Below are positions 29,601 through 64,000 of a DNA stretch of 64,000 nt, piece by piece. Source of the DNA: Ectocarpus siliculosus (lineage: Eukaryota; Sar; Phaeophyceae; Ectocarpales; Ectocarpaceae); the NCBI GenBank assembly GCA_000310025.1, contig FN648647.1:30859-94858 (forward strand). The letters run 5' to 3'. The position numbers were made by a program, and so were the translations under genes. Under the pieces are notes generated by a model, which saw only the letters and a program-made list of their open reading frames with translations, did not search any database and was not told the DNA's origin. Numbering within the stretch: position 1 is the stretch's first letter; the number at the start of each line of letters is the position of its first letter.

Positions 29601-32600
29601 GTACACCGCGTCTTCCATACCGCGTGAGAGGTGTTGGTGTTGTAGTGGTAGCGTATTTCCGGTTTTGCATGTTGCATGTTTATATCTTGTACACGAAGGT
29701 GATTGGTGTTTTGTGTTTTTTTGTATTTTCGCATTCCGTGTGATGTATCTCTGTTGTACCAAGGGGGGAAGTTTTCGTTTGCTTGTTGTGGCGGGCTTGG
29801 CACAGCAGGAACAAGTGGGAATGAATATCATTTGATTTCGGCCACCCTCTTCGTCGTGGGCGTACACAGTCGAGCTTTGAACATCGATGTCGGGGGTGCG
29901 GTATCTTGTGCAACCTACGGTGCGAGAACTTATCCTGGATACGTATAGTCGGTGTGTCCAAGTGTTTGCTGCCATGTCCTGATCTCCCTCCCACCTTTTG
30001 TCCCAAATGTTGCAGGGAGATCGACGAGGATAAGGGCATGCTGCTGGAGATAGTTGCCGGTCCCCTGAAGGGGCAAAAGCGGCGAGTTCAGAAGGATGGT
30101 GCCAACATCGGCCGCGCCACAGAAAGCACCATCAGGTATGTATTGGTTGGCGTATCCTGTTCGCAGCGCGTCGGCACGTGTAGCATGTGATGGGGGAAGA
30201 CTACTCTGTTTTCCGTGCTCGTTGTTGTTTGCTAGACTGATGTCAGTAGTACTTTTTGTTGATGTGGTGCAGTGTGTACCGTTTTTTGTCCTGCTCGTCT
30301 GCTCTCTCTTCCATTGGTTGTCATACCCCCCTCCCTCTAGGTCAATGGTCAAACGACTACGGCATGCACGACTATGAGTAACCCCCCCCCACACACACAC
30401 ACACCCTGAACGCGCTGTAATCTCGTTTCTCCCCACCGCACACGACTCGACAGCATCGCCGACCGAGAGCTTTCGCGAAACCACAGCACCATTGAGTGCG
30501 ATGACAACAGCCAAAGCCTTAGCTCCTTCGGGTGGGCAAGCAGCGGCGACGGCGGCGCCGATGCCGGAGGAGGAGACGACCGCCACTCGGCTGACGCGAA
30601 GAAGGACGGTACGCTAGACCTCTCCACCGCGGAGAGCGTTGACGGCAGCAGCGGGCAGGGAGAGGCCGGAGGGGGGCGGATGGAGTACTACCTCTGCGAC
30701 GTGGGCAGCACCAACGGGACTTACGTACAGGTTCGAGCGATTTTTTCGTTTCGTGGAAGTTGAGATGGGTGACGAAAAGACCCCGTGTTAGGTTTTTTCT
30801 CCCGTGTAGTCGTTGCTTGTGATTTTTTTGGGGAATGGACAAAAGTAGGTATACCCATGCCATTCCCAGACAAAGTGGGTACTCGAAAATCCAGCTCGCG
30901 CGCACTCCATAGGCGACCCCCAAACGACTCAAAACCCCATTCTGACACCTGGGCGACACAGCCAGGGATTTTGTTTTCGTGTCGATACATGCATGGGCAA
31001 GAGTGCCCCCCCGGAGTGGACTCATGGAAGCGCACCAGTGTCTTCGAGGGGAGATACATTAGATGAAATTGCAGTTCGGAAATCTGACAGCCAACACTTC
31101 TGACTCAAGACGTCAGCGAGAAAAAACTTTACAATCTGTACGCAGTCACTGTGCATTAAATGGAGTTGTGGGCTGGCGGGTGCATTTGCTGGAGCTGACG
31201 ATATTGCAGACATGTTTTGTCTCACCTCCTCGTTGGAACGTTTATTATTTTGTCCCCCTTACCCCTCTTGCCTCTATGGAACACCCGCGTTATTATTGTC
31301 GTTGGCAGCTGGTGGGACCGTATGCGAATAGCCGGCGCTTGGAGCTGAGCGATCACATCCTGATCGGTCGCACGGGTTTCAGCATCAACCGCTACGACTG
31401 GGGCGTTTGGGAGGACCGGGGCGCGCGGAGATCGATGGAGGACAAAAGCGTCGTCATTCAGGTGATGATTCGACCGAGGCGCGGCAGCAGTATCGCCTTG
31501 TGGGCAACTACGAACGCCTCGGTACATTGGGTATCAGCTCGGAGGGGGGAGGGGGGGGGGGGAGGGGGGGGGCAGCAAAAAAACGTCTCTGTATTTTGGG
31601 ACAATTGCAGCATCTCCTTCAACACGGGTTGAGTGGGAATGGTGGAATAACGTGGGGGAAAAAACTCTCTGAATACAACCGCGGTCTCTTGGTCCGTCTC
31701 CGACCCCTCCTTATCCTCCCCTACGCTCATCCGGGGGCCGCAGGAAATGGGGGGGGAGTCCCTCACGTCGCTCGGCCTGGGACCCCAGAAGTTCCTCGCC
31801 GTGGACGACGGAAACGGGGGAGGGGAGGCGAGCACCTTCCTGTGGCAGCGGCTGCACGTGGCGATAGCGGAAGCGCTGGAGGACTCTACCTCACGTATCG
31901 AGGAAGCTCTGCAGCAGGACCGCGCCGCCGAGCGCCTGGCCACGTTCGGCAGCAGCGGCGGCGGCGGGCAAGCCACGCGCTGCGACGACTGGGACGGGGA
32001 CGCGACCACGCCGGCGGGAGGAGGCTGGACGCCCTCCGCCGTGTTTTCGAGCAGCAACGGCGGCCCGACACCGCCGAACCCGAGCGTGGAGTCCTTGCTT
32101 CACGCGTTGGCGATGGCGGCGTCGTCAGGCGCTGGGTCGGAGGACGAGCCGCGGTCTGGGGAAGGCGTCGCGGGGCGTAGCGAGTTGCGGTGGGGCTATG
32201 ATACGGCGCCGGCTTGCATGGATTCGGGCGAGAGCTCTCCGCGCAGACCTCCGGTGTTGTCCACGGCGCCTAGCCTCCCTCCCGAGTGGCTCTTCGGGGC
32301 GAGGGAGGTGGTTGCAAACGCCGCCTGTAGCGATGAGGCCGCCGCCGCCGCTGCCGCCCCCACGGGGGTAGAGGAGGAGGGTCCGCAACACGACGCTCCG
32401 CCGAGAAGCGGTGCGGCTTCGGACACCGGCTCTGACGGCGAGGCTGCCGCCGCGGCCGGCGGCGACGCCGCTAGCGGAGTGTGCACGGAGACGGCCGGCG
32501 GCAGGCAGGCGGAGGATCCCCGGCGGCAAGAAGCGGATGGCGGGGCGGGTGGCGAAGAAGAAACGTTCGGGGTGGCTTCGAAGCCCCCGCTGCCCTCCGG

Positions 32601-35600
32601 GAGCGGGAGACAAAGCGGCTCGCAGAGCCCGGGGGGCGGGCCCTCGAGGCCGCTGGCATCGGCGGGGCTGCCGGCGGAAGGAGGGGGCGGAGCCGTCGCC
32701 CGCGAGGGCATGGCTAAGCAGAAAGCGCCGACGGCTGTAGACAGGTGAGGCGGCGGCGGCGGCAGGGGGGGGGGCGGTAGGTGGGGCCGGGCGAAAATCA
32801 GCTTGCGGCTTGCGATTGACCGAGTGGCGACGACCACCCTGGCGGGAGGCCGCGTGGGCGTATGTTGCCGTCGCCGTTTGCAAGCAGTGACTTGTTGTCA
32901 AGCGTGTTGTGCTGCTGTCACGTGGCGATCACGAGCCAGATGGTCGAGGCGTTATTGGATTGTGCGGCCTTGCTTGTTTTGCGACCCGTGAAGCGTACGC
33001 GCTGGCATTTGGGGTCACAAAACTGGTACCTTTTGCGGCGGCGGCCTCGCCTACGTGGGAATAATGCAGTTGATGTTCACACTAAAATTGAGACAATTGG
33101 GCAAAGAAACACAGCTATTTAGCTCAGCCGAGAGTCCTCCTCTAACCTCTACTTGGAAGTTAGAGGTTACACGATGGTGGCGACCAAAATACTCAAGAAA
33201 TTGGACCTCGACCCGATACTGACCTTTCGTATCTCCGGGCCCCCTGCTGCTGCATCTGTTGCCTTGAAACTCCCTAACTCAAGTTTCTTACCTCCTGGCC
33301 CGTTACTGTTGTGGTATTTGTTACCTGTCATGGTCCTTGACTTAACCTTGTCGTCGTCGTTTCCCGCGCGACAACCCCCTCCCCCCCCCCGGTGTTGTGT
33401 GCTCTATTATAGGGTGATCGAGGACGTGGTGACCGCAGCCTTCTTGGCCACGGATGAGGAGTTTCTGACGACCGCCAGCAAGCCCTCGAGCGGCAGCACC
33501 GCCACGACTGCGATGGTGCTGGGCGATCGGTTCTACGGCTTCAACGTCGGGGACAGCCGAACCATCTTGTGCCGCGCCGGCCGTGCGGAGGTCGTGTCCA
33601 AGGTGCGAGGAGCCGGGATTGGGGGCTTAGGCGGCGCACTAGACGATGCTGGAGGAATCAATGTCGGAAGAACCGAAAACTGAAGTTTGCACTGCTGTTG
33701 GCCAGGCAATAAACGAGAATGATTTCGATTTTTTCTGATAGAAACCTTACGTTTTTCGAAGTCAGAGAGATTAAAATCGATCTATGCGGAAACTCACGCA
33801 AGGCGTTATTCTTGGTGTTGGATAACATCTTCTACCAATAAGAACTCATGCTTTTTTGGTATTCGAACCTCGTCATTGTAGACTGCATGATTGGCGACAG
33901 GCAGTTTTTCCGGGAGAGCATCTCCTGGGGTTGAGGGCGACAGCATTGGCGTTTGCTCTCCTTTTACCAGTTTCGTTTGGTGTTTCCACGTCTCAACGCG
34001 TCAGGAGAGGTGGAAACAATATCGTTTCGTCTGCCACGGGTCAGCCCCCCGCACCCTTTGGTCCATAACACCATGTCGTCTCCGGCAACGCGGTGGAAAC
34101 CCTCTTCCGTTTTTCACCGGGTCTGGCACGTGCTGTGTCGTGTTTAATAATTGTGTTGTCTGTTGGCAGGACCACAAACCTTCACGCGAGGACGAGACGG
34201 AGCGGATCAAGCGCGCCGGGGGAATGGTGATCCAAAGGCGGGTCATGGGCGAGCTGGCGGTGTCCCGTGCGTTCGGCGACCGAGCGTTCAAGGTCGGCAT
34301 TAAGGTGCGGCTCAACACGGTTGCAGCGACTAGCGGAGGAAACGGCAGCATTGGTCTAGAGGATTGAATCCAAGGTGCCTTGTGGTTTCGGTTAGTGTCA
34401 AGGTTTTCTTTATTTCGAGGGAACATGGTAACGCGGACACACCCGCGTGTAATAATCAGGAACGTTACTCGGAACGTTGGAGACATGTGTTCCCCGTCTG
34501 TTTGGATCATCATGCAGGACAGAACACTTGGGCGATCTCCGCTGGCGTGTCCGGCTACGCACCCGTGCTTAAGTAGTCTCCGACCCGTTTCTGCAGCCAG
34601 TTGCGAGCATGGACCCGCATGACCGCTCGAACCTTTTTGACCGACTCGCTCCGACGGCGTTTACAAAATCTCACCATCACTACAGTAGTACTGCTGTAGC
34701 GGTGTGAGCATCAGGTCTCAAGTCTAGTATTGCTCGTTTCAGCCATCTGGCGGTCCGCCTCTTGTTATTTGCTCCTCTTCACGCGCGCTTCTTTTTGCCT
34801 GGACTCTTACCGCTGTTTTTTTTTTGTCATGCTGCTCTTCCAGGCGATTTTGAGGGAGGACAGTGGACACCAGCATGGTTCCGACCTTGACGATGACCTG
34901 GGTAAGTCCTACTAGTAAATTGCACGTGCAGACAAGACCTTTTTTTCAGGGTTTTTCTTCATGGACTTGATGAATTGAATAATAGAGCAGTGGTGGGCCC
35001 GGTTTCGCGGTCCCTAGTGTCACGACGAAATGTGGCCGCTATTCAAGGCAGGTCGCTAAACCGAACAAACAATTGTAACAAATGTATAGTAGTTTTACTA
35101 CCGGGGTGCGGCGGTGCCACGTGATTTTGTGGTCGCGAAAAGGGTATGCCTCTAAACAGGGGGTCGCAAAACCGAGACCCCTACCGTACAGCAGTGGTGG
35201 GCGGGCGTTCAGTGCGCAGTGTGGAGGTAGGACAACGGCCTCGCGTATGATATGGCGACAGCCCACTTTCGAGCAAAGGATACGTTTTTTGTAACAACTC
35301 AGCAGTGCCGCTGATATGTCAGCACAGCAGCAAGGAGTTCGTGAAGCATGACCTTCGATCCGGGGCAAGACGCCTATTCTGTGCTTGCTGCATCTCTCAC
35401 ACGTAACTTGGGCAGGAGAGGTCCGTAGGTCAGCATGATAGTTCATAGTTGCTTGTTTTTTTGTTTGCCGCTGGGGTGCTCCTGGCAAAACGTGAATCCT
35501 CAGCGCTGCATGTATAGCTCACGCAAAGCGCGTGGCGCCAGCCACAGCAAAATAAAATACACCCTCGATGCACGTACGGCCTTTGTCACGGCACGTCGTT

Positions 35601-36661
35601 CAGATGAAGATGATGACGAAGACGATGGCTTGAACCACACGGCGCCACCAACGGGGTCCCCGACCAATGGCGGCGACGCCGCCGAAGCTCTCGCGGCAGA
35701 TCATAACAGCCGGACGATGGGGAGAGGGTCGTCCAGCGGCCAGCTGCTGCCGCCGCCGCCGCCGCCGGGGNNNNNNNNNNNNNNNNNNNNNNNNNNNNNN
35801 NNNNNNNNNNNNNNNNNNNNNNNNNNNNNNNNNNNNNNNNNNNNNNNNNNNNNNNNNNNNNNNNNNNNNNAAGCCCGTGAAGGACCCCACGGGGGCTTTC
35901 ATCACCGCGGAGCCGGAGATGCTGTCGTGCCGGATCACGCCGGAGGAGGAGTTCGTGCTCCTGGCGTGGGACGGGTTGTTGGATGTGTTCACCAGGGAGG
36001 AGGTATGTATGGGTGTGGCTTTGGTTGTCCCGGGAAGGCCCCTGGGGAGATGGGGGTGCGTTACCCCGGGTTTTCCCGCATTTTTTTTCGGGAGACACAA
36101 CATTTTTTTCTTTTTTTTCACGTGGGACAGGGATGCGTTCCCCCCCTTCGGCAGTTGTTCCGGGAGACGGGCCCACGTTTTTTTTTTTTTTTGTCCCCCG
36201 CGGGGGGGGGGGGGGGGGTCATGCTTGGTGGGGGTCCTTGTTTGAATGGAGGGTGGAAGGTTATTTCGACTCTACATGAGACAAAACACGGTCTCGTGGT
36301 CTGGAATTTCTCCACCCAGCTCGCCCACTTGGAAACAGGACGTGGTCGACTTGAGATTAGCCTTCCGTGTGACTGTCGCCATTCTTGTCTAGCAGTGGGT
36401 TGGTTGGTCCCCATCTTGAAGGTGTGTGGTAGTACCTTTTGTGTTCCTCCCTCACTGGACCTGGAAGGCGGACAGCGTACGAACGACGCTTGCATGTTGT
36501 TTCTGTGCTCGTTTCAGGTGGTCAGGATCGTGCGGAAAGAGCTGCGCATGCACGGTGACACCCAGCGTGTGTGCGAGACGCTAGTGCGCAAGGCAATCAA
36601 CGAGCGGTACACGCAAGACAACGTGTCCGTGGTTCTGGTGGTGCTCAAGAAATTTTGGTGA
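26679..36661 (+). CDS. Protein with two FHA domains fused to a PP2C-type Ser/Thr phosphatase
   Basis: Main exons: 26679-27029, 28325-28607, 29019-29361, 30016-30135, 30454-30730, 31309-31461, 31744-32744, 33413-33602, 34170-34304, 34844-34901, 35604-35770 (into the gap), 35871-36002 and 36518-36661. A small exon near 27609 ([13 protein letters not shown]) is possible; the link across 27.0-28.3 kb is unresolved, so the N end is tentative. FHA1 is degenerate ([18 protein letters not shown], no NG). FHA2 is canonical ([25 protein letters not shown]). PP2C motifs follow in order: RSMED, DDGNGG (usual DGHGG), [44 protein letters not shown] and TQDNVSVV, so the metal-binding Asp residues are present. 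Two long low-complexity insertions interrupt the phosphatase, one after DDGNGG (about 310 residues) and one acidic insert before the gap. The likely role is Mg/Mn-dependent dephosphorylation of pThr-containing partners bound by FHA2, as in plant KAPP-like enzymes (inference). Confidence 0.85.
28820..28978. repeat. Dispersed repeat (family C), copy 1
   Basis: It shares, in inverted orientation, gtgagcccggtt, tatatatagc, ggccat.tgtagc and gcctcgaccaaaac with 53440-53585. It lies in the intron just upstream of the first FHA exon of the PP2C gene. Confidence 0.55.
29340..29760. repeat. Tandem repeat array copying an FHA1 exon end and donor
   Basis: The end of the FHA1 exon with its donor (ccataccacgtgagagctgt) recurs almost exactly at about 29437 and, with two changes, at about 29617. 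Between them longer units repeat (gcatgtttatatcttgtaca; cgtcttccgtgtgatgtat; gtgattggtgt). Only the first donor fits the reading frame; the others are in the intron. Confidence 0.75.
30340..30390 (+). mobile_element. 5'-truncated LINE 3'-end copy with poly-C tail
   Basis: It reads ggtcaatggtcaaacgacta then cggcatgcacgactatgagt and a C run, almost identical to the copy at 48 kb and to the LINE terminus at 62412. It is in sense in the intron before the FHA2 core exon, with the tract about 63 bases upstream of the acceptor at 30453. Confidence 0.7.
35771..35870. other. Assembly gap (100 N)
   Basis: Exactly 100 N sit within the PP2C region, directly after a CCG run coding for poly-Pro. The frames on the two sides do not agree across 100 bases, and [10 protein letters not shown] begins at once after the gap. 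The true missing sequence is therefore of another length and may include an intron. Confidence 0.95.
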
Positions 36662-38098
36662 AGACCCAACAGTTAAACCTTCCAAGCCCGCATGTTGCTT
36701 CTCGTAATATTCCCCAACTTGGGCTTGGAAGCGGCCCAGGAGGACTTGAGACAGTGAAGATAGGATATGCAAAAAATGTGCAAGTGGGGAGGGGGGGCGG
36801 GGGGGGTGTTCTTGTTTTTCAGCCGATGTAATTGCGCTCTTGTCGATGCTTGTGATCACAACACGCCAATTTTTCGTCGGTTAAGTACATTGTGCTTCGT
36901 ACGGGGGTCGGGAGGGGGGGGGGGGAGGCAAGCGGTACGGAGAGGAGTGTGAAGCAGTGGCTCGGCCAGGGGAGAGAGTGTATTTGTGAGATTGGATTTT
37001 TCGTCCGTGGAATTAATCGGCATGTTTTTAAATGGGGGGCTTGGGGGGGCATTAGTCGTACCGCGTGGTACACAACACGGGTGGGCATGCATTGGGATAC
37101 GATCCCGTTGGAGAAGGTGGCGAAGAGGCCACATATGCGTTTGAAGCGGCTCGTGGAGACGGTACGGTCGTAGTCGTTATATGTTGCGGAGGCGGATGTT
37201 TTGCAGGGAGGGGGGGAAGCGTTTCGTCGTTACCCCCTGAGCAAGGGTCGGTCTGAATGGATATATATGTCGAAAGCGTTCCAGCGAGTGCGATATCAAA
37301 ATAGTGTTACAAGATGCGTGGTAGCTCCCCAGTACTTTTCGAGTTGCATGGCCCCATCAGTCGCTCTTACGGGGGTGCCTTGGGCAGCTTGGGCTGCCTA
37401 AGGAAGAAGTGCGAAATGTTTTTTGTGTGTGGGTATTGTTTTATAGCAGAGCGTGTAGCTCTCGTGTTCCCTACTCTGTATTTTGACTCGCAACTTGTTG
37501 CGCTTACGTATGTATCTGCACGAGATAAGTAACGTATGGTCTTGCGTGTCATTCATCATGGATGGGAGGAACGTTTGTCGTGGTATCGAGGATATTTGCG
37601 TGATCCCCTCCCAGACGTCGGTAGTAGCTTCCTGTTCTACCAAAACCATTGACAGGGGTCAACATGTACATCCTTGTCGCCTCTGGAGCTGATGTAGAGC
37701 TCTCTTTAAAGATGGAGCTGTGTAGCCCCAGGCAAGCGTTCTACTTCTAGGAGGGGGAGATCTCCTTGTATTTTTTTCTTGCGTGAGTGTCTACGTGTGT
37801 TAAGTCAGATGGTCCGTGTGTGTAGCCTATTAATAGTCGCTGATGAGCTCTACGTTCGCCCGATGGCACGGGCGGTTTCCTTCCCTGTATCTTCGGAATA
37901 TCTGCGCTTCCCCAAGTCTGCCGAGCGTCGACTCACCGTCAGTCCCTCCAATCCGTGTGCCGGGCAACATGGACAGTAGACGTCGCCGGGATGGGACGTG
38001 TGCGCAGGATCTGTCCTATCCAGCCTCCACACGTCTCTCGGTTACAGTAGCTTAAAAGACTGAGCTCAACCACCGTCTACGAAGTAGCTACAACTAGC
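36662..38098. other. Intergenic stretch between convergent genes
   Basis: It holds the 3' flanks of the FHA-PP2C gene (+) and of the methyltransferase gene (-). Several poly-G tracts are seen (about 36790, 36913 and 37045). No coding or RNA feature is supportable. Confidence 0.5.
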
Positions 38099-40106: not shown

Positions 40107-40109
40107 GCC

Positions 40110-45000: not shown

Positions 45001-48000
45001 GCGTAACATGTTCTCCTCCTTCTGCGCAAGGACGGACACCCTACGACTTTGCGTGAGATCTTGGCACTTGAGGTGTTAGAATGCAAGAGGTTTATCATAC
45101 TTGAAGTGTTAGAATGCTAGAGGTCTATCACACTGCTGTAGGTATTAGAATGCAAGAGGTTAACACGCTGAGGTGTTAAAACGCGAGAGGTTTATCACAC
45201 TTGAGGTGTTAGAATGCAAGAGGTTATCACAATTCAGGTGTTAGAAAGCAAGAGGTCATCACAGCGCACCGCTCGTTGTGATGCCGGGTCAAGGACCCCG
45301 ACAGATATCAGTAGCCTCCTCGAAAATAGTATGGTTGGTTGCTTGTTTGGGTTAGGGTTGCGAAACCTATCGCTCTATTCCACATATGGCACGTAGTATG
45401 CTCGCGAAGACGGGCCCAGAAAAGCCTGCGTCAAGCTATTGTACGTGCATCGCAGCTGTTGGAACCCACAGTAGCACAGCAAGCAACGGCTGTTATGCCC
45501 CTAACACACACACAACTAGAACCAGGAGCTTTTAGGTCAACTCGAGCGCTTGTCTTTGTGGCATGCATGGATACCTCTTGAGGTTTATTTCGTCGGAAAG
45601 CTAAGAGACTGGAGGCACGCTAAATGACCAGGCGGGAAGGGACAGGCACCATGCTCCCAGGGAGAGTTCGTATCGCAGCTTAATATTCTGTCAATCTCTC
45701 GTCGACATTTAATAGGTCGCGCAACATTTCCCCCCAAAGGAAGAATCTATTACCATGTTTGCGGGGAAAGTTGTATCACCGCATAAATTGTCTTGTGCCA
45801 CATCAAGGGTTGCTGTTCCGAACACGCGCATACTCGCTGGGTGACAGGTTATCTGCGGGCTGTTCATGGGCCGCGCGGCCGACCTGTACAACCGCAAGCT
45901 CATCATCTTCTACGGCTTGGTGATCTGGAACGTGGCGACTGTCTGCCTCGGCATGTCCGAGAACTTCGTCCAGCTCCTCCTGTCGCGGATCCTTCTCGGC
46001 ATCGGGGAGTCGTTTTCGATGCCCGCGTCGTACTCGCTGATCGCGGACTACTTCCCTGCGGAGTCATTGGCCCAGGTTTGTTGTTGTTGTTGTTGCTGTT
46101 GTCGTCGTCTTCACATTCAAAATCTTTCCGGTCTCTACCCAGTCAGTACCCCGTCATGTCCGTACTGGTCCAACTGGCGCGGACGCATTCCGTGGTCACG
46201 TGCCAAAAGAGGGGTACTGTACACCGTTCGGATGAAGTACTGTACATGGATGCACGACAGAAACAGCAAAACTGAACACCATTGGCGTATTACCCGACGA
46301 CCTCCCTCGTGAAAACGCGCCTGAACTACCAATGTTGCATAGTTCTGTTGTTTCCGCCGTGCACTATTTTCCGCTGTCTACTTCATCAGCACGAAAAAAG
46401 TAAAAGTAAGAGTGCCTGTTTTTTTTCTTGTCTCTGTGTTGTCCTCCGTTACACGACAACAACAGTCGGCCGTGTCCTATTAAATTTTGTTCTCTCTTTC
46501 GTCCTCCGTTATGTACGTGACAACTAATCTACTGTTTTCAGGCCAATGGAGTTTTCGCCTTCGGCGTTTACGTGGGCGGAGGCCTGAGCTCCCTGAGCAT
46601 TGCCATGGCCCAGGGGATCGGTTGGAGAGGCAGCGCCTTCACCGTTGCCGGTTACGGCCTGCTGCTGTCGCTACTGGTACGCTTCACGGTTAGGGAGCCC
46701 GCGCGCACGCCCGCCGTTACCGCTCCCGCTCCCGCGAACCGTACCTCGGAGGCGGAGGAGGGGGGAGGCTACGCGCCTACCAACGGGTCTTCAGGGGACG
46801 CGGAGAAGGACTATACCGCCCGCGAGAGGTGGGTGAAATCTGCCTGCTGTTGCACGCGGGCACGTCATCCTGCCCCTGCAGTATATATAGAACGACGCTT
46901 TGCTTTGCGAGAGACAGCAGCAGCCGCCAACAACCAACCAATCAGCGAATTGGTTGTACAGCGGTCGCGGTCTCCTAAATGGCGGTCTGCATAAAAGTCG
47001 GTCGCCCTGTTTACAAGGCGGGTGAAACTTGCTGCCATACAGCAGCAGACGGAATATTTAAGGTTGTTCTACCCATGGAGTATGGCGGATGCCTCAATAC
47101 GGCGGTCGTTTATCAGCTGCTCCACCACCACTGTAGCAGGGTTTTAGACAACAAAAAGAGTTGCGGCGGTTGGTGGGCGGGATCGAGACATCGGGGAAAG
47201 ATGCCGTGTCGTGTCCATCCGTGTTTTTGTTAGCATAGCACGCCTCTAAGTTGCGGCTCAGCGTTCGTTCCTGTTCGTTGGTGGTGCGCGCAGGGATGGG
47301 GGGGATAGTCCCCTTTGAATGACCTAGGGGTGGGGGTGGGGGGGGGGCAGTAGAGGCGAAAGGAAGGAAGGGCTATGTACGCCATCGAAAAGAGCAAGGG
47401 GCCAGTCAGGTGGGATAAATGGGCTGTTCTGCGTGAAGCTTTCAGCAGGGCAGAAGCATCAGTTTTTCGATGCCCCCCCTTGTCACCGTCCTAACACGAA
47501 GGCATGCAGAACATAATTACCCCCGCCCCCCCTCCCCGGTGTTTGCCATCGGGGTTGGGTTTTCGTCGCTTGGCAACGACGTTGTAAAAGAAGCCATTTC
47601 ACTTCGTGAACTCGGCAACCAGGTTACCGGGTTTTTTTTTGGCGGTAACCATAATGGTGGTCGAGGAGATCATGTTGTGCGGGGTGGAGAAAACTCACTC
47701 CGCGCAAGGGGGATGATCGCACCACGTTGTGTTAAAATGGTCAAGCATCCTCGAGGCATTTACGCAGTGCTTCCAACTGTCTCTGGAAGTGAACGCACCA
47801 GAAAATAAATTAAGTCATACGCAGCTGTCATCCGTACGCAAGGAAGTAAGCACAAGATGCCGAACACCCTTAGCAGGATGCAGGGCACTCTTCATGCGAC
47901 TCGCCGAATACCTCACGGCGTTTCGTTCATGATGTGAGAGCCTGGTCCGGCGAGAACCCGGCGTGCTCCGTCCCGGCTTTGTAGGGATGCGAGGTCAATG

Positions 48001-51000
48001 GTCTAATGACTACGGCATGCACGACTATGAGTACCCCCCCCCCCCCCCCTGGGCGTCTCCCCGCCTTGTGTGTTGGCAGCGCTAAGCTAATTTTCGGGAA
48101 CCCGCTGATCGTGCTGCTCATTTTCGGAGGCATGGTCCGGTTCATGGCCGGGTACGCTATCGGCTCTTACCTCCCGGACTTCTTCAGCCAGATCTACCCG
48201 GACGACAACACCATTTGTGAGTAAGGAGTCGTATACAGTTCTACTTGTACAGCAGACTGTGAGTAATTGGTGCAATACATCATGCAGTTTGAGAGTAACA
48301 TTCAGAAGCGCGATACAGTACTGTGTGCAGATATACTCGGACAGTTAACACCATCTGTCAGGAATCAGTTTAAAATAGTAGTTACAAGTACAATTTTACC
48401 AGTCTCTCGCGTGTGTTTTGTTCTCTTGCCGCTATCAGGGGGAAACCTCTCTCACATGTTATCCGAGAGACGAGATTGCAGGAGTTGGTGGAGGTCTCTA
48501 GGCATCACCGCTAGCGCTATCTCACTGGACGATTACTGCACACGAGTTTGTTTTTGGGGTGGGTGTGGTCATAGCTGGGGCGCGGACGTTCCCGCGCCCT
48601 CCAGTCCCACCAGAACCACGCAGTTATTTTCTGACATGCATGCTTTGCCCACGATGGTCGCTGAAACTATCCATACCACCGGTCGGTGGTCCTGTGAACC
48701 TGCTCTCCCCGTGTGCTTCTCGGCGATCTCAGACAGCTACCTGAACGCGTCGGTCGTGTCGGTGGGTGGAGCGCTGTCGTCGTACGCCGGGGGTTACGCG
48801 GCTGATAGGTGAGGGGGAGCCCCCGTAATTGGGTACTACACAGCACTGGCTGGGGCTCGCGCCCATGGGATAGTGTGTGACGGTCGGCGTGCCTTGGGGG
48901 GCCGAGCGGCACTTGAGGGGAGCGGCAAGAGCTTTCAACGGATCCTTTTCCCACGCAAGGAATAACAATCTCTTTTTTGCTGACACGCTTACTAACGACA
49001 ACACGCCTCGAAAATGCCGGGTCTGAACGGCTGGGCTCATCGCGCATGAATAGAGCGAAGGAGTCGGTCGTGTTTCTGTACGAACAAGGTAATCGTTGTT
49101 GTTGTCTTGACCCTAAGAACTTTTCATCTATCACTTGACGGGGTCGACTCCCGTGGTCACAGGCCAGCTTTCCCGACAATAGGTCTACTCAACCACAATC
49201 GACCATAGGGGTTCGCAAGCGATGTACACACAATCCACCATCAGCATATAGCATGACCGTCTTTTCCCGCACCGCCGCTCCTGAAACACCGCCGCAGGTG
49301 GGAAAAGGCTGGCCAGCACAGGGCAAGAATGTACATCCCTGCCATCGGAGCGCTGTTAGGAGCCCCGACGTTTTTCCTGGTGATCGTCACCCCCAACTTC
49401 TACGGCGCCATGTTCTTTCTATTTGTGGAGTGTGAGTTTTTTTTTTTTTTTCTGCAGACTTGCAGTTTTGGGAGTGAAAAGCGAAAGTTCTCCAACAAAG
49501 TACTCCATCTTTTTGATATCATTTTTTTTTTTCTTTCCTACGGGTCAAGTTGTGGTTGTGTTGTACTAAATTATTGACAAAATGAGAAGAGCTACAGATA
49601 GAGAGAGATGCGTGTGGATGAGTACAAAAGTGGTGCGGTGCGACCTCCTTCACTCCCAGGGTTCACTCCCAGAGTGATGGTCTCATCTGTCGATTTGACT
49701 GACCCTATATTCTCCTAAACCAGCTTCGCCTTTTCCGCGTTGTCTAATCCGTGGATTTGACTGACATTCTCCTATACCGGCTTGGCATTTTCCGCGTGGT
49801 CTCATCCCCTATATGACCGTCGAGTTGGCTTCACAATTTACCGCTTGGTCTCATCTCCGATACACCCGTCGATTTGACTGACCCCACATTCTCCTAAACC
49901 GGATTTTTCGCGTGGTCTCATCCCCGATGTAACAGTCGATTTGACTGGCCCCACCTTCTCCTAAACCGGCTTCGCATGTGTTTTTTTTTGCTCTCCGGAA
50001 TGTTCCGTGACTGTTGTTGCGCCGCTTCATGTGCAGACCTGGTGGCGGAATGCTGGTTCGGCCCGGCGATCTCTGTCCTCCAGAAGGCCCTCCCTGCCCG
50101 CGTGCGGTACGTCTCCCTCAACACGCAACCTATCCGCACAGCACTATGCCCATGATCGAACTCCTCTTTTTTTTGTTGTCCTCTGCTTTGCAAGGGACGT
50201 TTGCGTTACACACGAGTTCCGTTGACTTGGACATGCATGCGTCGACGTTTCTCCGAGATTTGGTTGGTGCCTGTCTTAGTGGTTCCTGGCTTTTGTTTCT
50301 CAACCAGTGTCGCAGTCACCCTGTCGTATTGAACCAATCACGTATTTGACGCGGACCGGCCGCACAAACTCAAGCTGGGCCAAGGGAGGCGCATTTTTGC
50401 GTTGGGTGATGCTGTTGACCTTGGTTGGTTACTGTACAAAATTAGAGGCGGGGGGTGTTTGTCCGGTCATCCTCTGGCCCTCCCTCTCTCAACTAACCTA
50501 AATAACTCTTATCTCTCTCTCTCCGTCTCTTTTTGCTTCTCTCTGTTCCTTCGTCCCCCTCTCCCTCTCTCTCATCTCCTGCCTGGTCTGCAGAGGTGTG
50601 GGCATCGGCTACTACAGCTTCTTCACCACGATCGCCGGGAGCTTCATGACGTACATTGTTGGCGTTATCCTTGACGCGTACACGTCCGACGCTGCTCTCA
50701 AGGTGAGCTTGCGACACACGAGAAACCAAGACCCATTTTTCGGTTCCGGTCCCACATTTTTCGGTTGCAGTGATTAGTTGGCGTTTGCACTTGGTCAGGG
50801 ACCGTGTTGGTGTACCTATCGCCCGTGAAGATTTGTTCTTGCCGGCAAGGATCTCTCCCAAATCTTAGTGCCGCCGCGCCGCATGCCCATGTCTGTCGTG
50901 GGAGACGACGCTAGGTCACCTCTTGTCTACCCCGTCTTTCTCGCTGGTGCTGGTGGAAGAAAATATAAACCTTCTAAGGTTTTCTCTCCTCCGCCGGTGC

Positions 51001-55343: not shown

Positions 55344-55420
55344 TGTTAAGATGCACAGCATATCCACTATGCTACAAGTCAGCGCTGACTTGGTGGATAT
55401 ATATGCTGTGCATCTTAACA
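55344..55420. repeat. Imperfect palindrome, sister of the one at 55601
   Basis: The left arm is nearly that of the 55601 palindrome (tgttaagatgcacagcatat...aagtcagc), and the right arm differs by a small deletion and substitutions. The right flank (aaaagtacaaccaaccgggg) is the inverse of the left flank of the 55601 unit, so the two units form a larger inverted arrangement. Confidence 0.85.
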
Positions 55421-55600
55421 AAAGTACAACCAACCGGGGTCCTTCAGCCTGTTGGAGCTGTTGGACCTCGGTAAAACCCAGGGTTGTAATCCCTGTAACC
55501 AGCGCTGCCCCCATGCGGTTCATCGACTCACAGGGCGGGAATATGTGTCTTCACTTGGACGACTGGAATGTATACCGTATTCGAACCCCGGTTGTACTTT

Positions 55601-55680
55601 TGTTAAGATGCACAGGATATCCACTATGCTACAAGTCAGCGCTGACTTGTAGCATAGTGGATATCCTGTGCATCTTAACA
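55601..55680. repeat. Perfect 80-bp palindrome
   Basis: The arm tgttaagatgcacaggatat + ccactatgctacaagtcagc is followed without spacer by its exact reverse complement, with the centre between 55640 and 55641. An RNA from it would fold into a 40-bp hairpin with essentially no loop. On the minus strand, a tRNA box A-like tagcatagtgg is followed about 33 bases later by a box B-like ggttcgaatac outside the palindrome. Confidence 0.95.
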
Positions 55681-56084
55681 CGCAGATCATCCATACATCG
55701 CGCCCGACGCATCGATTTGTGCCGTTTCTTTTATGTACTAGATCTTACAGCAGCTAAGCTGCTACTGGACCATCCTCCGCAACACTCTCCGTGCTCTCGG
55801 TGGCCCGTACCCACGAAAAAGGTAGCCAAAAAAAATGCGGGGGAACTGAAGACTATTTGTCATAACACTGCTGTTCAAGACCCTACTTACCGTGTGCGGG
55901 GAGACGTCGATAAATGAACATGTTTAGCGGATTACTATGCATACAATGTAGATAGGGCAGGGTAATGAGCCGCGGGGTAGCCGACTCAATACCTTGCAGT
56001 AGTCTGTGTGTCTGCGATGCTTTCGATCATTCATTTTGAAAATAGGCTCCTGGAACAAACGGCCGGTCGTTGACGTGGTCATAC

Positions 56085-56278
56085 GGTAGTACCGCAGGTG
56101 ACGCAGCCCCTGGACCACAAAGAGTGGCGGTGCCGATAATGGTGATGCGGGGACCGTCTCGTCGAGATTTCCGCCAAGGTCTCGCTGGGTTTACGCATCC
56201 TCTTCGACGTGGAGTACTCGAGCCTTTAAAATTTATACAAGGGGTGTGGTATCTTATGTCACCTACGGTAGACGTCAT
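56085..56278. repeat. Short inverted-repeat element (family A, MITE-like)
   Basis: The right end is ggggtgtggtatcttatgtc then acctacggta. The left end (gtagtaccgcaggtgacgca) is a weaker inverted match. The interior differs from the other copies. Confidence 0.5.
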
Positions 56279-56499
56279 ACCAAATACATCCGTTCCCGCA
56301 CCGATTTGGGTGTTGGTGGTTTCTGTGCACAGAGTCACGCAGCAGCAATTGAAAAACTATTCTCCGCGAGCTGTGTTTATGCAACGTCTTGTGTGGCGAC
56401 CGATAGAGGACTCGGGACCGTAGGACCCAAGGAAGCTGAGGTGGCGAGAGTCGGCAAAACGCATGCATGCGAGAAAATAGCAGTGGCCAAAATCAGACA

Positions 56500-56690
56500 A
56501 ATCGGGTACACCCGGTCCAACCACGGCCATAATCGGGTACCCCTACATGACGCTGCTGGGAGCGATCGCATGACACCATCTGATTGGCCGATGCCCACCC
56601 CTCCCCGACCTTGACCGTCTTTCCGCCGGGTGTGCACCCGATCTGGCTTCTCGCCCCCTGGGTACCCGATTTTTCTTTCCCCTACCCGAA
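56500..56690. repeat. Dispersed repeat (family B), copy 2
   Basis: Shared with 40640-40830: aatcgggtac, gcatgacaccatctgattgg and ccttgaccgtctttc in order. It also contains several gggtac words. Confidence 0.6.
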
Positions 56691-56962
56691 ATTAGCTAGG
56701 CTGTTCGGCTAAAACCCATGCACCCTCACGACTCCCGGCGAGATCCATAGCTCCCAGGGCCGACGGAGCTTTTTTTTCTTGGTGGCTACAATGTGCCCAC
56801 CCGGAGATGCGCTATGCCTCACGGACTTTTTGGCCAACGTTATTTCGCCGTCGCCGTATCGCTGTCTCTGCGGTTTGTCTCTCCTCTGCTCGTTGCTTAG
56901 TAACACCAACATGACGGTTTTCAGCATTTGGAAGAAGACGCTCGCTCGACTTCGGCCCTCGG

Positions 56963-59900
56963 ATGATCACCTCGGAGAGAATCCCCTTCGGGTCCAGAAG
57001 GAGGCACAAAAGCGTTATCAGGAACAACAGCAACGGCGGCGAGAGCATCTTTGTGTTTGTAATGAGCATGTCCGTATGGAGTGCTGGCTTAGAGTCTGTG
57101 ATGGCCGGGGCGGGGGCGGGGGTCAAACGCAATGTGGAAGTCAAGTTCGACCCATCCGCTAGCATCAGTAGTGCAGCAATAAGACAGGTGGTGGTCATTC
57201 CGCCAGGGCACAGCCATTGGTTCGAGATTCCCCGTGTAGCTGGCGGAAGCTTTTTCAGCCGCAAAGCGATGGTGGTTATTGCCTCGGAAGGGGAAGACCC
57301 CAAGATGCAGTTGCAGGCCGTGGTCCATCTCCGCAGCTCCACGCTATTAACGGTATCTCTGGGCCCCTCATCTCGTACGCGAGGGAGGGTGGTTGTTGAC
57401 ACGCTCACTAGGGAGAATCTTATCTCCCACGACAAGGCCAACGAGCAGCACAGTTCGCCACAGGCGGACAGGAGTGATACCGAGACTGCTCCGGCATCTA
57501 CCTGCGACACTGCGTCGAACGGAGAATCATCTCCTTTTGATTTTGTTGAGGTCGGCAGTGAAGATGGTGGGATTCTTTCCCAAATTATGCGCGTTATCCA
57601 GACGAATCTGTCTGCGTCAGCCGCATTTCCGAAAGAGGCAAACACGGCATCGACGACCTGTGACGGCAGTAATTTGAAGGTATTGTTCATGTTCTGTTGG
57701 ACCATGGTATCAATGACAAGTTGCGGTCGGCAAGATGGGGCACTCGCTCCTAACGCATCTAAGAACGGGCAGCATGCGGTGCCAAATAAGCACATTACTT
57801 GCATCCAACTCGTGCTGTTACACAGCAGCAGTTCTGAACACTAACCATCGTCGCGTTTGCCGATGCTAATTTTTTGGTGGCGAGGAAAGATCAAGAAGCG
57901 AACCCTTGCGTCGAAAGCAGCAAAGCGCCGGAGGAGACCATCATCGAAGAGAATACCACCGCGCCACCTTCATGCCACCACATGTGGTTGCGATCCCGCG
58001 GCGACGATACTAACCCAGGGGCACGGATGGTGGCTGGTGGTACTCGACTCGCGATGCACTCAGTTAGGACGCGTACCGCGCACTTGCGGCCTGACGGCAA
58101 TTTAGGTGATGTTCCATGCTAGGAATTTCTGCACTTCTCACCCGAAGTACTTAGATGACCGCCTGAAATAAGTTTTTTCCAAGATGAGGCCACGCTAGAA
58201 TTTGCTGCTTGTCATCCACCTGCCGCGCAGGGCACGACGTCTCATGCCAAAGATGGCGGGATAAGTACGGTCAAGTCGAGGTTGTGGTGGCTCCGCAGGA
58301 CGGAAAGCACGTGGAAAACGTGCGACTACTGGACAACGTGTACATGGAAGAACTGTCGCACAGGTGAATAACCAATGCTGTCATCCACATGACACCGTAT
58401 TTTACATGTATTTCAGTTCGAGGAAAGCCGTAGTGTCTCTTCGATTTACCCTGGAGGGTAAAATGTGCTTCTGTTGGTCGCTTATCCCAGGGTGGACTCA
58501 AGAGGGGGGTGGCGGGTAGGGTATTGAACTTCTTTTGTAACCGTACCTGAGGCCAGCTTTGTCATGTTCAATTGGTTTGGGGGGCAGGGTTGAAGTAGAT
58601 GGGGACGAAGTCTGATTTGTTCACGGCAGTGATAGTTGAAGGCCCCACGACACCTCTCGATGCTTGGAAACGATCTTGTCTGTACCATGATTTACGATAA
58701 TCACACCATCCTATCATTACCGCCCTTTGAGCTACCCCGAATTACAATTTGGAGTGCATTCTGGAACATGAACTTGCCACAAATGAAAGAGGTTGTTCAG
58801 GTATGCCCGTGTGGCAAACCAAAGCAAAGGAGAGAGGGAGCGCGAGTTGAACACAGATGAAGAACATAAATATTGCATACTATAGGCGAAAGACGAGGCC
58901 CCAGTGGAGGAGACAAGAAACACATGTTGTCACATGGCCGAGCTTAGCACCATAGAAAATGGCGAGATAGCAATCGCTAGAAAATTGGTTGGGTGGGAAT
59001 GAGATAAAGAAGGTTGTGGGCGCAAAATCGAATAGAACATCCACATGTTGGTGGTGCCTCCGAGTGGTAGAAACGGCGCCCCATCTCGAAAGTGGCATGA
59101 TGCAACAAATGGGTAACCCCCCCCGGGCGTCACATACAGTGGTTGCGACGGCGCTCTCTCGCCCGCCTAGCCGGGCGGGGGCAGATTGTGCAGAATACGA
59201 TGACTTTGTGGGCTCCGGAACATCCAAGCGGACTTGTGATTAACTGTGTTTTGGTTGGATCGAAACTCAAGTCCTTTCCAGCTTTTCTGGCGGTTGTTCG
59301 GAGGGCCTCCAGTGGTTGGCGGTGATGGCGGAAAGACTGTTTCTCGTTATGCGCTTGACCTAGGTTGTGCCCTTGTAATTTCCTTCCTATCCCCCCTTGT
59401 TCCCGTGCTCATAAGAGAGGAGAGCGGGACGTGCCTGATCGACCCGGTCATCTCAGGGCCAAGTGGGGTTGCTTTCGCTTCAGGAACAGCATCTGTTCGC
59501 TACTTCGTTTCAACATACGACGTGCTGGTCCAGACGAACGGCGACAAAGGGGGAAGAACGGGCATGCAAAGATACATTGGTGAAACGTATTTCCCAGTGG
59601 TGAAAGGCGATGGACCTCACGATCGTTGGGAAGCGGACGGCGACTTTGCGGTGCGAAAGCCAACCACCTTACTGTCCAAAACAAATGTGTCTTAACGTGC
59701 AGCGATTTGGCCTTGTGTGTACACCATTTATGCTCATCAACCTTGTCGCTTATCGCTTTGCACTGCCCACAGTTCGGCTGGTCTGTAAGGTACCTGGAGG
59801 ATGACTACTATATGTTGTCGCCTGCGTTCAGGTGATTTGGAAAGGCGAAGAGCTCTGGCTGGAAACTGAGCTCCGGCACTTTAGCAGCCTCGGCGTGGCC

Positions 59901-61315
59901 TTCAAAAAAGCGTGGAGACGTTTGTTCGGACGTGAGGACGACGCGCTTTCAAGTGGTCCAGTCTCTCTTACCCCCCTTCGCACGCCGTTTGGCAGTACTC
60001 CTATGCCAAAGGGCTACATCAAGGTCTCCAACTACTCGGACGTGAGTAATAGAAGAGTGTTCGATGTTGCAGCTGGCACCGCGCGACTATCATGTTGGTT
60101 GATTTCTGGCGGGATGGCTGGATCTTGTCGTTGTACGACACCTTCTCCCATCCGTGCAGTATGGCCGCCCGCACGTTCTCCCATGTTGCTTATTGGCCCC
60201 GTTGCCTGTTCGTCGGTGCTGGTCCAGGTGTGTGTTCGTGCTGTTCTTGCCGCAGAAATAACCACAACAAGTGACGCGACTACGGGCATTGCTGGGAACG
60301 TAGGTGTAGGAGCTTTCGGAGTCGACGCCTCGTTGGGTGCCGAGGTGGAGAACAGCAGGAGCAGGACATTTCAGGTAAGAGGTGACATCCGTTCTGCAGG
60401 CTACTTTGTGTCGTTTCCCGCCGCTTCTAGTCCTCCATCGAACTTATGCGCTTTTCGGGTTCCGTTAACTCTCTTGTTTACCGCCCCGTACTTGCAGCCG
60501 ACGTCCGTGTTCGGAACACCCTCTGCCAGCCAGGTCTTGGCTAAGACAAGTGGTTTCCATCGGCTGCCGGGGGATTCTCAGGTACACCTGGTGTTCTTCG
60601 CTGTTTTTGCTGCGTTTAGTTGGCTGAAACGTACCGGACTTCGTGCATGCGGTTGTTCCCTATGGTGAGCCAACCACCAATGGCATTAACGCAAGAGTGA
60701 AGAAAGCTTGCCCCCTCTTTTCTACGCAATCATTTGTGTCATGCCGATTTTAACGTGTTATTGGTTTGCCGTCATCGAAAGCCGCACGAGATCGGGCGAG
60801 CGCGAACGTGTTTCTATTTTAGATAGTTGATAGGTCTCTGTCTGGGGGCTATGTTTCGTTCCTTGACACCTGCCGTCTACCTCCATGCTACGAATCACTA
60901 GAGATGGTTCTGTCTAAGTGGTCATTTCTTCACGGGTTCGTCTGCGTGCATGCAGTCTGCTCGCTTCCTGTGGTGCACCGTCTCGATGGCATTCACCCCA
61001 GAGGACCTACCGATGGACGACATCGGGCCGGAACCCGTGTCGACAAAGGTGCTCGCAAGGCATGGGTACTCGAAAGTCGGCGGACATGCCTCCCCCGCCT
61101 ACTTCCAGAAGAAGGCGGGGGGTACGAGACACGAGACCTTGTTTGTCGTTCGAGTGTGGGACAATGCACCCATTGCTGCGGGTGATGCGAAGACGATATC
61201 CCAGGAGTTGTTTTCGCAGGGGTGCCTATGGGATGCTTCCGTCCCCAGCAAAGATGACGTTGAAAGAAGACTTCACTCGTATTTGAATAGACACTCCCAA
61301 GCACAGTTTGCCTAG
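56963..61315 (+). CDS. Unrecognised multi-exon gene; possible distant VPS13/VPS62-type lipid-transfer protein
   Basis: The best supported part is the 3' end: exons 59832-60041, 60228-60374, 60498-60581 and 60956-61315 (stop 61313-61315) all join in phase 0. Upstream exons are about 56963-57679 (start unclear), about 57878-58109 and about 58231-58361 (the last pair phase-consistent). Likely exons also lie near 58640-58800, 59180-59320, 59400-59560 and 59700-59789, but their joins were not resolved. Visible pieces include VVIPPGHSHWFEIPRVAGG, GQVEVVVAPQDGKHVENV, TLWAPEHPSGLVINCVLVGS, VCTPFMLINLVAYRFALP and GYIKVSNYSD. The TLWAPEHPSG piece recalls the W-x-P-x-x-P-x-G segment repeated in VPS13/VPS62 proteins. 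This is a weak, single-motif hint and no function is asserted. An open frame on the minus strand (57804-56812) overlaps the first exon and is judged a shadow. A LINE fragment at 59047 lies inside. Confidence 0.5.
59047..59122 (+). mobile_element. 5'-truncated LINE 3'-end copy with poly-C tail
   Basis: It reads ttggtggtgcctccgagtgg, agaaacggcgccccatctcg, aaagtgg and, after a deletion of the gtcaatggtc block, gcaacaaatgggtaa and eight C. It matches the LINE 3' end around 62412-62530 in order. It is in sense relative to the host gene and lies in a probable intron. Confidence 0.6.
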
Positions 61316-62411
61316 TTGCATGGACGCTGGCGGTGTGATTGCTGGTCGTAGAAAACCAGAGCATCCGTGGGGCCAAATGCGACGAACGTATCGCGATATC
61401 GCGGTTGCCATGAACTTTAAGAGTACATGTGTTGCGCTTCGATGAAGCTGGGGCGACGTAGGCAGAGATGGAAAAAGCGGGCAAGATCTTGATACTCGTT
61501 CTCGAACAGTGCGGTTGGGTAGCGGGTATGCTTCGATGTGCAATTGTGCACATATTCGGCGAAGATTGCAACGCTTTTTGAGCAAGATTCGTGTTGGTGG
61601 GGGACTAGCCACCCACGAAACGCTTAGAGTGAGGCTCACTTAGTGTGGTTTATTATAGAACCACTCGGCGGCCAACAAAGAAAGTTTGTTGACACATTTT
61701 TTTCTGTGAGCTAGCCTGTTACCACGGAAATCGCCCGCATGACCGGTTGGGCAAGTGCGAACATGGGATGGTATTTGATTTGATCAAGAGAGATCGGAAA
61801 TATTTCGTACGTACACTAGGCTTGACTACGTGAATGTGCTCTTTTAGACCTCACTGCCTGTGGCTCTTGTGACCATCTCCACGTGAGGAAGATTTGGAGT
61901 GCAAAGTTCATTTATTGTGTTTTGACCAATCAGCGAACTGCGTGCCACAAAACCTTTAAGCTCTGTTTCCTCTGGGATGGAATCATGAGCAGAAGAACCT
62001 AACTAACCCCTTGTTTGCATCACTCGGTCAGGCAACTTGCCGATGAGCCATTCGATAAAGCTTGGCGCAGGTTCCCGTGTTCTGAACTGGTTCATGTGGT
62101 TGTACTGGCTATCATAGGCGTTATCAGTCCACGTGTAACGGTATTGCTGCTGTGAGGTCGACAGGTACCATCCATGGGACGATACTCGGGCAGAGCTAGG
62201 CCTTTCCCCATCATGTTTTTTTTTCGAAATGTAGTCTACACACTTTTTTCAGGCAACTTTTTTTTGGGCAATTATGCTCGACACACTGCCGCCGCCCAAA
62301 ACTGCCATTGATGTCGTTTTTCGACAATTATGCTGACTTCGGTCAAATATGCTCGACTTATAATTTCAATATGCTTTAGTAGTGCTTTTTGACGGTTTAC
62401 GTAGCTTTCTT
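61316..62411. other. Intergenic stretch
   Basis: It contains the 3' flank of the plus-strand gene and the sequence beyond the LINE terminus. A piece at about 61705-61810 resembles 5935-6030 (both have a gcctgt.accacgg.aatcg.ccgc block and gagagatcggaa). Repeated attatgctcgac/atatgctcgac words occur at 62270-62360. No gene is supportable. Confidence 0.45.
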
Positions 62412-64000
62412 GGGGGGGGGGGGGGCGTACTCATTTGTTGCTTGCCGTAGTCATTTGACCATTGACCACGCGTCCCTTTCGAGACGGAGCACCGTTCCTA
62501 CACCTACTAGAGACACCACCAACATTTGGGAGCTCTTTACGTTTCTGCCACAAACTCCATAAAATTTTCTTGCACATCTTATCCCCGTCCTCTAGGGCCT
62601 CTTGTGCCCACCATCCATCCCCAATTATCGCGATCGTTTTTTCGCTGTTGTCTAACTTACCAAACTTGTCCATGTCACACCCTCTCTGTCTCATTTCCTC
62701 CTCGAGATCCTCTCTTTCCTTCCTGTACAGCTCACACTCCCCAACTATGTGGGGTCTACTCTCCTCCGATTTGCCACATGGACATGTATGTGTGTCTATC
62801 CTCCTCTTCCTCTCTCCTACGGCTGGTATACCTCTTCCTCCGTTCTGGCAAGTCCAGATCGCCTACTCGAAATTGCAATTTCAGCTTTTTCGCATAGTCC
62901 ATGGGGCCGTCCAAGTACTTCTTCATCCCTATCCCTTCTTTCAACTTCCCGTATATCTCCAAGTGGTCTTCGCTTCGTACCTTCTTCCGAAGGGTTGCCT
63001 CCTCCCTACTCTCTAGCATCTCCTTGACTTTCGTCTTGAACCCCCCGAACCCTTCCGTGTCCAACGTCTCCTCCTCGTCTCCTATCTCCTTCCAAACCTT
63101 CTCTACCACCTTGTCCCATCTGATTCCCTTCTTCCCTGGAGTCGCTTTTCCCCAAGCTGCCTCGTCAACCATGGCTGGTAGTCTATCGTCCGACGTTCTA
63201 CTTACCTTGTACTGCCAATTCAACTTCTGCATGTCTCTCTTTGTTTTAAGAGAGTACATTCCCAATTCTGCTCTCAATACAGTGTTGCTCGTTGTACTTG
63301 AACATCCTAGTATTTTCTTGGCCGCTGCCATCTGCACCGTTTCCAGCTGCTTGACGGCCTTTTCGTTACCTTCCCATATCTCTCCTGCATACTCTAGCTT
63401 AGGTACAATCACATTCAAGAGAATACACCTCTTAATCCTAGTGTCTAGGTGTGGGTCCGTAAGGATCTCGTCCATCTTGCCTATCTGAGCTTTACTCTTC
63501 CCAATCAACTTCGCTATGTGTGCGTCCCATGAGCACTCATTCGAAATCTCTACTCCCAGGTACGTATACTTGTCTACTACCGGTAGTTCTTCCTCCCCCC
63601 ATTTCCATTTGAATTGTACGGGATTTTTCTTATCTTCGTTACAGACCACTACTGCGCATTTTCCTACGTTCGCCGACAGTCTCCATTTTCGGGTGTATCC
63701 TACCGCCGCATCTATTTGTTCTTGCAACCCTTCTGGTGTTTCGGATACCCCCACGAAATCATCTGCAAACATCAGTCCGGACACACTCTTTCCCTCTACT
63801 TGGACTCCCTGTCTTACTGCTTCAACCGCCCTTATCAAATCGTTGATGTAAATCTTAAAAAGAGTGGGTGACATCGTACAGCCCTGTGCGACTCCTTGGA
63901 GTATATCCACGTACTTCGAAATTTCCCCATCCAACATCACCGCACTTCTTGTGCATTCTGTCATCTTTTTCAACATCCTCCACATTTTCCCCCGGATGCC
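62412..64000 (-). mobile_element. LINE-type non-LTR retrotransposon, 3' part, frameshifted
   Basis: The minus strand from the window edge codes for the C-terminal half of a reverse transcriptase: GVAQGCTMSPTLFKIYINDL (fingers/palm), GLMFADDFVG (catalytic F-x-DD box) and KWRLSANVGKCAVV, then the thumb-like KYTYLGVEI region and a long linker. The frame closes at 62756. The next segment (CPCGKSEESRPHIVGEC, a C-x-C-H-C knuckle usual at LINE RT ends) continues in the +1 frame down to a stop at 62431-62433, so one frameshift lies near 62790-62810. The 5' part, including any endonuclease, is outside the window. The element ends with atgagtacg and a C tract (poly-G on the plus strand, 62412-62425). 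Copies of this terminus occur at 16.1, 16.25, 30.3, 48.0 and 59.05 kb. Confidence 0.85.

Follow-up and report, generated by a model that had tools for sequence, protein, structure and literature searches.

A 64,000-bp stretch of the genome of the brown alga Ectocarpus siliculosus (assembly GCA_000310025.1, contig FN648647.1, forward-strand positions 30,859 to 94,858; the window hereafter) carries the 3' part of a long interspersed nuclear element (LINE) that ends in poly-C, and copies of this 3' end recur both in the window and across the genome. The 3' end is common to several non-long-terminal-repeat families, namely the LINE families B and C and a non-autonomous element, A, and these are real elements with a strong, strand-specific preference for C-tracts. 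We consider it highly probable that they enter pre-existing C-tracts in the orientation of the C strand, that C-rich stretches just ahead of intron acceptors are among these tracts, and that orientation relative to genes is not significantly biased. Targeted insertion had been one of several options named in a preliminary description of the window, and it is the best fit to the C-tract flanks and head-to-tail chains described below.

Probable insertion into C-tracts

The flanks of 5'-truncated copies, sampled genome-wide as described in the next section, show the preference directly. The flank is readable in 63 such copies; a run of at least five C's lies within 40 bp upstream on the same strand in 48 of them and a G-run of that length in three, compared with 6.4% for either type of run in random 40-mers; omitting 18 flanks that are possibly the tail of another element leaves 34 of 45 with C-runs and two of 45 with G-runs. 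Strict target duplications of at least eight bases are present in seven of the 63 (mean 0.28 with shuffled 3' flanks, maximum two in 200 shuffles), using a test string that started with six C's of the tail, and all seven open with at least four C's. Examples of duplications are CCCCCCAACAA at locus L066, CCCCCCTACA at L101, CCCCCCTTCCCCGGCAAA at L139, and CCCCCCTATT at L143, and the L024 duplication consists of the simple repeat (CCCCA)n, which stands on each side of the copy. The full-length copies at L044 and L055, read by eye, have a C-run plus AGATGCTGT and a C-run plus ATGGTCGACAT, respectively, on either side. The 20 nucleotides 3' of the tails are also C-rich (36% C versus a background of 27%, n = 141).

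The elements also insert behind one another. Searching for a complete A head no more than 28 bases after a tail, in the same direction, gives 87 genome matches at 86 places, whereas the opposite arrangement, with GAGTAC facing an A 3' end, gives six matches at five places, at one of which a C-run meets a G-run; the other four have no C-run after GAGTAC. The ratio of 86 to 1 is probably conservative, because the tail-to-tail pattern requires just a 3' end and the head-to-tail pattern a full head. For LINE C there are four head-to-tail arrangements and none in the opposite direction. Together, the C-tract flanks and the head-to-tail excess imply that the target's C strand fixes the direction of insertion, and the concentrated target and fixed orientation that characterize target-specific LINEs are thus found here in the form of a strong preference.

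The copy at L040 bears on how such insertions come to lie near splice sites. An exon encoding a molybdopterin-binding domain (MoCF_biosynth) begins 56 bp downstream of this copy, and the target duplication, CCCCCCTCCCCCGACTG, sits 20 bases 5' of the called 5' boundary. The duplication takes in the C-rich stretch ahead of the acceptor, which indicates, for this one locus, that the stretch predates the insertion.

These features are most simply accommodated by target-primed reverse transcription at existing C-tracts, carried out by a consortium of LINE B, LINE C, and the ~530-bp element A, which would act through their common ~45-nucleotide 3' end and the poly-C following it. We infer that the G-rich strand is nicked and that the 3' end of its G-run anneals to the C-tailed element RNA to prime cDNA synthesis. 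The insert would then point along the C strand, as the flank statistics indicate, the C-run and a few following bases would be duplicated, as seen for some copies, and each insertion would leave a fresh C-tract for the next, giving the head-to-tail chains observed. C-rich stretches 5' of intron acceptors would be one class of target, and orientation relative to genes should track the strand of the C-tract.

Several points weigh against this account. Fifteen of the 63 truncated copies have no C-run within 40 bp, such that the preference is strong and not absolute, and strict duplications are found in just the seven copies. The 86 head-to-tail places come from exact-word patterns and may include segmental duplicates, the pre-insertion C-tracts are read from occupied sites alone, and the priming step is itself an indirect reading. 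An endonuclease-like domain is found only in the element nested behind the LINE C tail at L090 (Exo_endo_phos_2, E 5e-4, below the Pfam cut-off), with none identified in LINE C itself.

Element families and copy number

The 189-Mb genome (492 contigs) contains 2,844 raw matches to a strict pattern of the shared 3' end, GGTCAATGGTC...GAGTA..CCCCC, and none to the reversed control pattern; 74 distinct places among 100 strict matches listed lead to an estimate of ~2,100 distinct genome places. The recurrence of the shared 3' end is far above chance. The sample comprises 72 of the 74 strict places (60 loci) together with 81 of 100 listed places (80 loci, contigs C2 to C16:2293883) of a LINE-type 20-mer, GGTCAATGGTCAAATGACTA, which lies outside the tail and hence tests the tail independently. 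A C-run of at least three follows the shared end directly in all 79 readable copies chosen by the 20-mer (78 have at least five C's; two of the 81 are masked). With the window included there are 156 tails, assigned as 81 LINE C, 57 A, and 18 B, with a fourth variant (L020, L040) counted under A and not split off; the median length of the tail C-run is 11. The sampled fragments outside the LINE-specific set mostly belong to sister families with the same 3' end. We also note that the copy density on contig C1 (3.73 Mb, 65 distinct strict copies) is above the average expected from the genome total, and that runs of N, either assembly gaps or masked sequence, begin immediately after the C tail at L009, L013, L015, L087, L114, L115, and L130.

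LINE C encodes a reverse transcriptase (RT) domain (RVT_1, E 4.8e-13), and the stretch immediately 5' of a B copy at L147 encodes another (RVT_1, E 3.4e-24); PDB relatives of the LINE RT are R2 and LINE-1 ORF2p. The last 200 bp of LINE C return 40 scored matches (of 1144 candidates), every one 99–100% identical. Two other LINE regions are incomplete, with that at L145 truncated to ~530 bp and that at L146 containing 2,743 N. The features expected of LINE-type elements are thus present, including the RT, 5' truncation, target duplications, and a 3' tail. The RT domain, a terminal run of 14 C's in the window copy, and the dispersed 3' fragments uphold the preliminary identification of the element as a LINE that terminates in poly-C. 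A sister LINE family has ~60% RT identity to C, and many of its copies contain long open frames (e.g. C2:3500942 and C26:2759400).

Element A is ~530 bp long, non-autonomous, and lacks a long open reading frame (ORF). Its consensus was built from 31 spans, four of which (the second at L021, the first at L024, the second at L045, and that at L060) extend into adjoining elements. The consensus contains no tRNA (ARAGORN) and no B-box match, with one A-box-like match, and there is no Rfam match at L012; with neither an RNA polymerase III promoter nor a tRNA, 5S, or 7SL head, A is not a classical short interspersed nuclear element (SINE). Many full A copies (L005, L006, L012, L021, L045, and others) are preceded by an extra copy of the ~58-bp head and a C-run, often with ACTC.

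Many truncated copies have a shared 5' truncation point (L066 and L143, among others): 21 of 81 C and six of 18 B copies start 19–27 bases 5' of GGTCAATGG, near TGCTCCGTC. This is perhaps where reverse transcription halted at a hairpin. Each family consensus folds into a stem at the 3' end, and RNAalifold applied to 89 distinct tails shows no hairpin common to them.

Copies and host genes in the window

The LINE C copy lies on the minus strand at 62412–64000, where it is truncated by the contig end at 64000. Its C-run occupies 62412–62425, the shared 3' end extends to 62467, and the RT ORF spans 62756–64000; read on the minus strand, the terminus is GGTCAATGGTCAAATGACTACGGCAAGCAACAAATGAGTACG followed by 14 C's. 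No host exon is called near this element by the exon model of the window. Its 3' end had been described as recurring at five sites, four of which are readily recognized. A family-B-like copy at 16094–16145 (minus strand) has the shared 3' end and a tail of ten C's, and the same intron holds another copy of the shared 3' end, diverged and with a six-C tail, at 16248–16290 (minus strand), corresponding to the site placed at 16247. The copy at 30339–30390 (plus strand) is heavily 5'-truncated, has a tail of nine C's, and is immediately preceded by the C-rich sequence CCCCCCTCCCTCT. The site placed at 47963 is a full-length element A on the plus strand at 47538–48049, starting with GGTGTTTGCC and ending in 16 C's, in which the shared part begins at 47993; it abuts, head-to-tail, a decayed tail and C-run at 47502–47537 (plus strand), read by eye as the remnant of an older member of its superfamily. 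The fifth site, 59047–59124 (plus strand), is a decayed version only, a family-C-like 3' end, again read by eye, that has the shared part without its middle and an eight-C tail, and for which the BLAST match is just 23 bp at 87%.

Three host genes are predicted around these copies. A LysM-TLDc gene, which we take to be OXR1-like, is modeled on the minus strand from 20566 to 14201, with TLD and LysM matches above the Pfam cut-off; an FHA-PP2C-like gene spans 28325–36657 (plus strand), with a PP2C Pfam match and FHA just below the cut-off (20.0 versus 20.7 bits); and an MFS transporter gene spans 45848–50702 (plus strand), with MFS_1 above the cut-off. Exons were called with a codon and splice-site model trained iteratively on the window and the sampled loci, and are predictions made without RNA; an initial model, based on the codon usage of four long ORFs, contradicted homology, for example by missing a WD40 exon at L012, and was replaced.

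The C-tract-to-acceptor distances of about 30–65 bases described for three genes are borne out. They are 63 bp to the predicted exon 30454–30730 (plus strand) of the FHA-PP2C-like gene, whose PP2C and FHA matches are on other exons, 30 bp to the predicted exon 48080–48216 (plus strand) of the MFS gene, whose MFS_1 match is on an upstream exon, and 35 bp to the exon 15863–16058 (minus strand) of the LysM-TLDc gene. The acceptor of this last exon was placed by eye, the model having called 15863–15958; one reading frame runs without a stop from 16056 to 15863, and the TLD and LysM matches lie on other exons. Wherever a host gene is called in the window, the copies lie in its sense direction, in agreement with the preliminary description, in which every copy appeared to be intronic and was sense; at 59047 the strand rests on one predicted exon, 58253–58363.

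Orientation relative to genes and acceptors

Outside the window, 150 copies have at least 400 bp downstream and were scored by the nearest predicted downstream exon within 400 bp, intronic location being inferred from exon positions. This gave 35 sense and 22 antisense copies, and excluding L090, whose 'exon' is a nested LINE, leaves 34 sense and 22 antisense among 149 copies (p = 0.14). Restricting the count to exons within 120 bp gives 17 sense and 12 antisense (p = 0.46), and taking a single copy per locus gives 31 and 19 of 134 (p = 0.12). At a distance of up to 120 bp, sense acceptors occur near copies about twice as often as near random non-coding points (17 of 149 copies versus 354 of 5736 points, p = 0.016), and antisense donor ends within the same distance are not enriched (12 of 149 versus 348 of 5736, p = 0.30). 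We regard the acceptor excess as a mild effect, because the random points were drawn from the same loci and are non-independent, and 32 of the 150 copies are mostly masked in the next 120 bp. The strands of neighboring copies on contig C1 are uninformative, with ten pairs in the same and five in opposite orientation at less than 5 kb, and 13 of each at 0.4–20 kb.

Exons chosen for their conserved look were searched singly against Pfam, and matches above the cut-off back the predicted strand of the neighbor. Antisense neighbors are above the cut-off at L001, L011, L045, L075, and L104 (five of ten), sub-threshold at L027, L038, and L124, and without a match at L071 and L051; sense neighbors are above the cut-off at L002, L012, L019, L020, L032, L040, and L056 (seven of ten) and sub-threshold at L076, L138, and L005. 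A genome search likewise recovers the WD40 exon that follows the L012 copy (C1:732280), and the antisense neighbors searched include an exon with an EsV-1-7 motif (Pfam E 9e-9), a family of brown algae and their viruses. The general sense bias suggested by the window thus does not extend to the genome sample, in which the excess is non-significant and five antisense neighbors are confirmed by Pfam; proximity to acceptors shows a mild excess, at about twice random, in the same 149 copies.

That sense fragments are retained because the poly-C serves as a polypyrimidine tract, through exaptation or through selection against antisense poly-G, would account for the sense direction of those copies in the window for which a host gene is called, for the lean in the same direction outside it (34 versus 22 overall; 17 versus 12 when exons lie within 120 bp), and for the enrichment near acceptors and not near antisense donors. 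However, the sense excess fails to reach significance in either count, antisense copies are found at 20, 108, and 110 bp from the predicted ends of exons in Pfam-backed genes (L045, L104, and L011), and at L040, the best documented acceptor-proximal case, the duplication suggests, for that one locus, a C-tract older than the insertion. We therefore think this explanation unlikely, and the proposal that the element supplies splice-site pyrimidines is not supported, even though some copies do lie in sense orientation just 5' of acceptors. A milder version, in which C-tract targeting comes first, is near-neutral to gene orientation, and is followed by mild selection against antisense intronic copies to give a modest sense excess, is a possibility that we hold only tentatively. 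It fits the overall 34 to 22, and non-element C-runs of at least five are less skewed (76 sense and 64 antisense of 413 in the loci, 34 and 32 of 149 in the window), but the difference is non-significant and depends on 149 copies and exons from a home-made model.

A high-copy element in introns also recalls introners, elements that create introns and would contain the acceptor within themselves. In the copies read, however, other intron sequence separates the tail from the acceptor, and copies are also found antisense and nested within one another; element ends coinciding with splice sites were not seen in the copies read, although no systematic test was made. We regard an introner origin as extremely improbable. 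Insertion into existing C-tracts remains our preferred reading. What looked in the window like a link to sense direction and acceptors mostly reflects the preference for C-tracts as seen through few copies, perhaps with a weak excess near acceptors. We found no evidence for an element that makes pyrimidine tracts; the element enters existing ones.

Relationship to known elements

The commonest transposable element of Ectocarpus, RTEX-N1_Ec32, is a ~600-bp non-autonomous element with >6,000 copies whose 3' end is common to RTEX-1_Ec32 and RTEX-2_Ec32, and Ectocarpus LINEs are frequently 5'-truncated and common in introns (PMC12477816). Element A resembles RTEX-N1_Ec32 in being non-autonomous, in its length of ~530 bp, and in having a 3' end in common with two LINE families, B and C; by inference from description only, A, B, and C are probably equivalent to the published RTEX families. 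They differ in that the passages considered here describe no C tail, C-tract target, or orientation, nor does the main text contain 'poly' (as a whole word), 'c-rich', or 'orientation'; Fig 1C of that paper shows terminal motifs, and a C tail may be noted there (PMC12477816). No paper on C-tract targeting is present among the titles and abstract openings examined.

A LINE and a short partner with a common 3' end are also seen in the Bov-B/RTE-clade LINEs and Sauria SINEs, which are of the apurinic/apyrimidinic endonuclease (APE) type, have a Tn-TA target signature, and carry a 3' repeat thought to affect target choice or priming (PMC13295347). According to the parts of that account used here, the target rarely resembles the 3' repeat there, whereas a tail-like target is present in most readable truncated copies of the Ectocarpus elements, and Tx1 and R1 are described as the only APE-type LINE groups with site-specific families (PMC13295347). 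Togen has a comparable preference for a simple repeat, (TG)n, but differs in being described, in the portion consulted, as related to NeSL, with a restriction-like endonuclease (PMC4640811). Introners, in the part of the source considered, share the property of being high-copy mobile elements in introns, and differ in that there is no sign of intron creation here (PMC9860276). We would give even chances to the broader proposal that the Ectocarpus elements represent a lineage of APE-type LINEs belonging to neither R1 nor Tx1, together with a non-autonomous partner, in which the poly-C tail is a targeting device, pairing of the C tail with a G-run picks the site, and each insertion regenerates the target, yielding head-to-tail chains and recurrent landing ahead of acceptors.

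When few copies are considered, an apparent 'sense bias near splice sites' can be a side effect of C-rich targets. The need for a LINE 3' repeat to match its target is described as unsettled for RTE-clade elements in the sections of the literature considered here (PMC13295347); with a match between tail and target in most readable copies and ~2,100 natural replicates, the Ectocarpus elements make tail-directed targeting testable.

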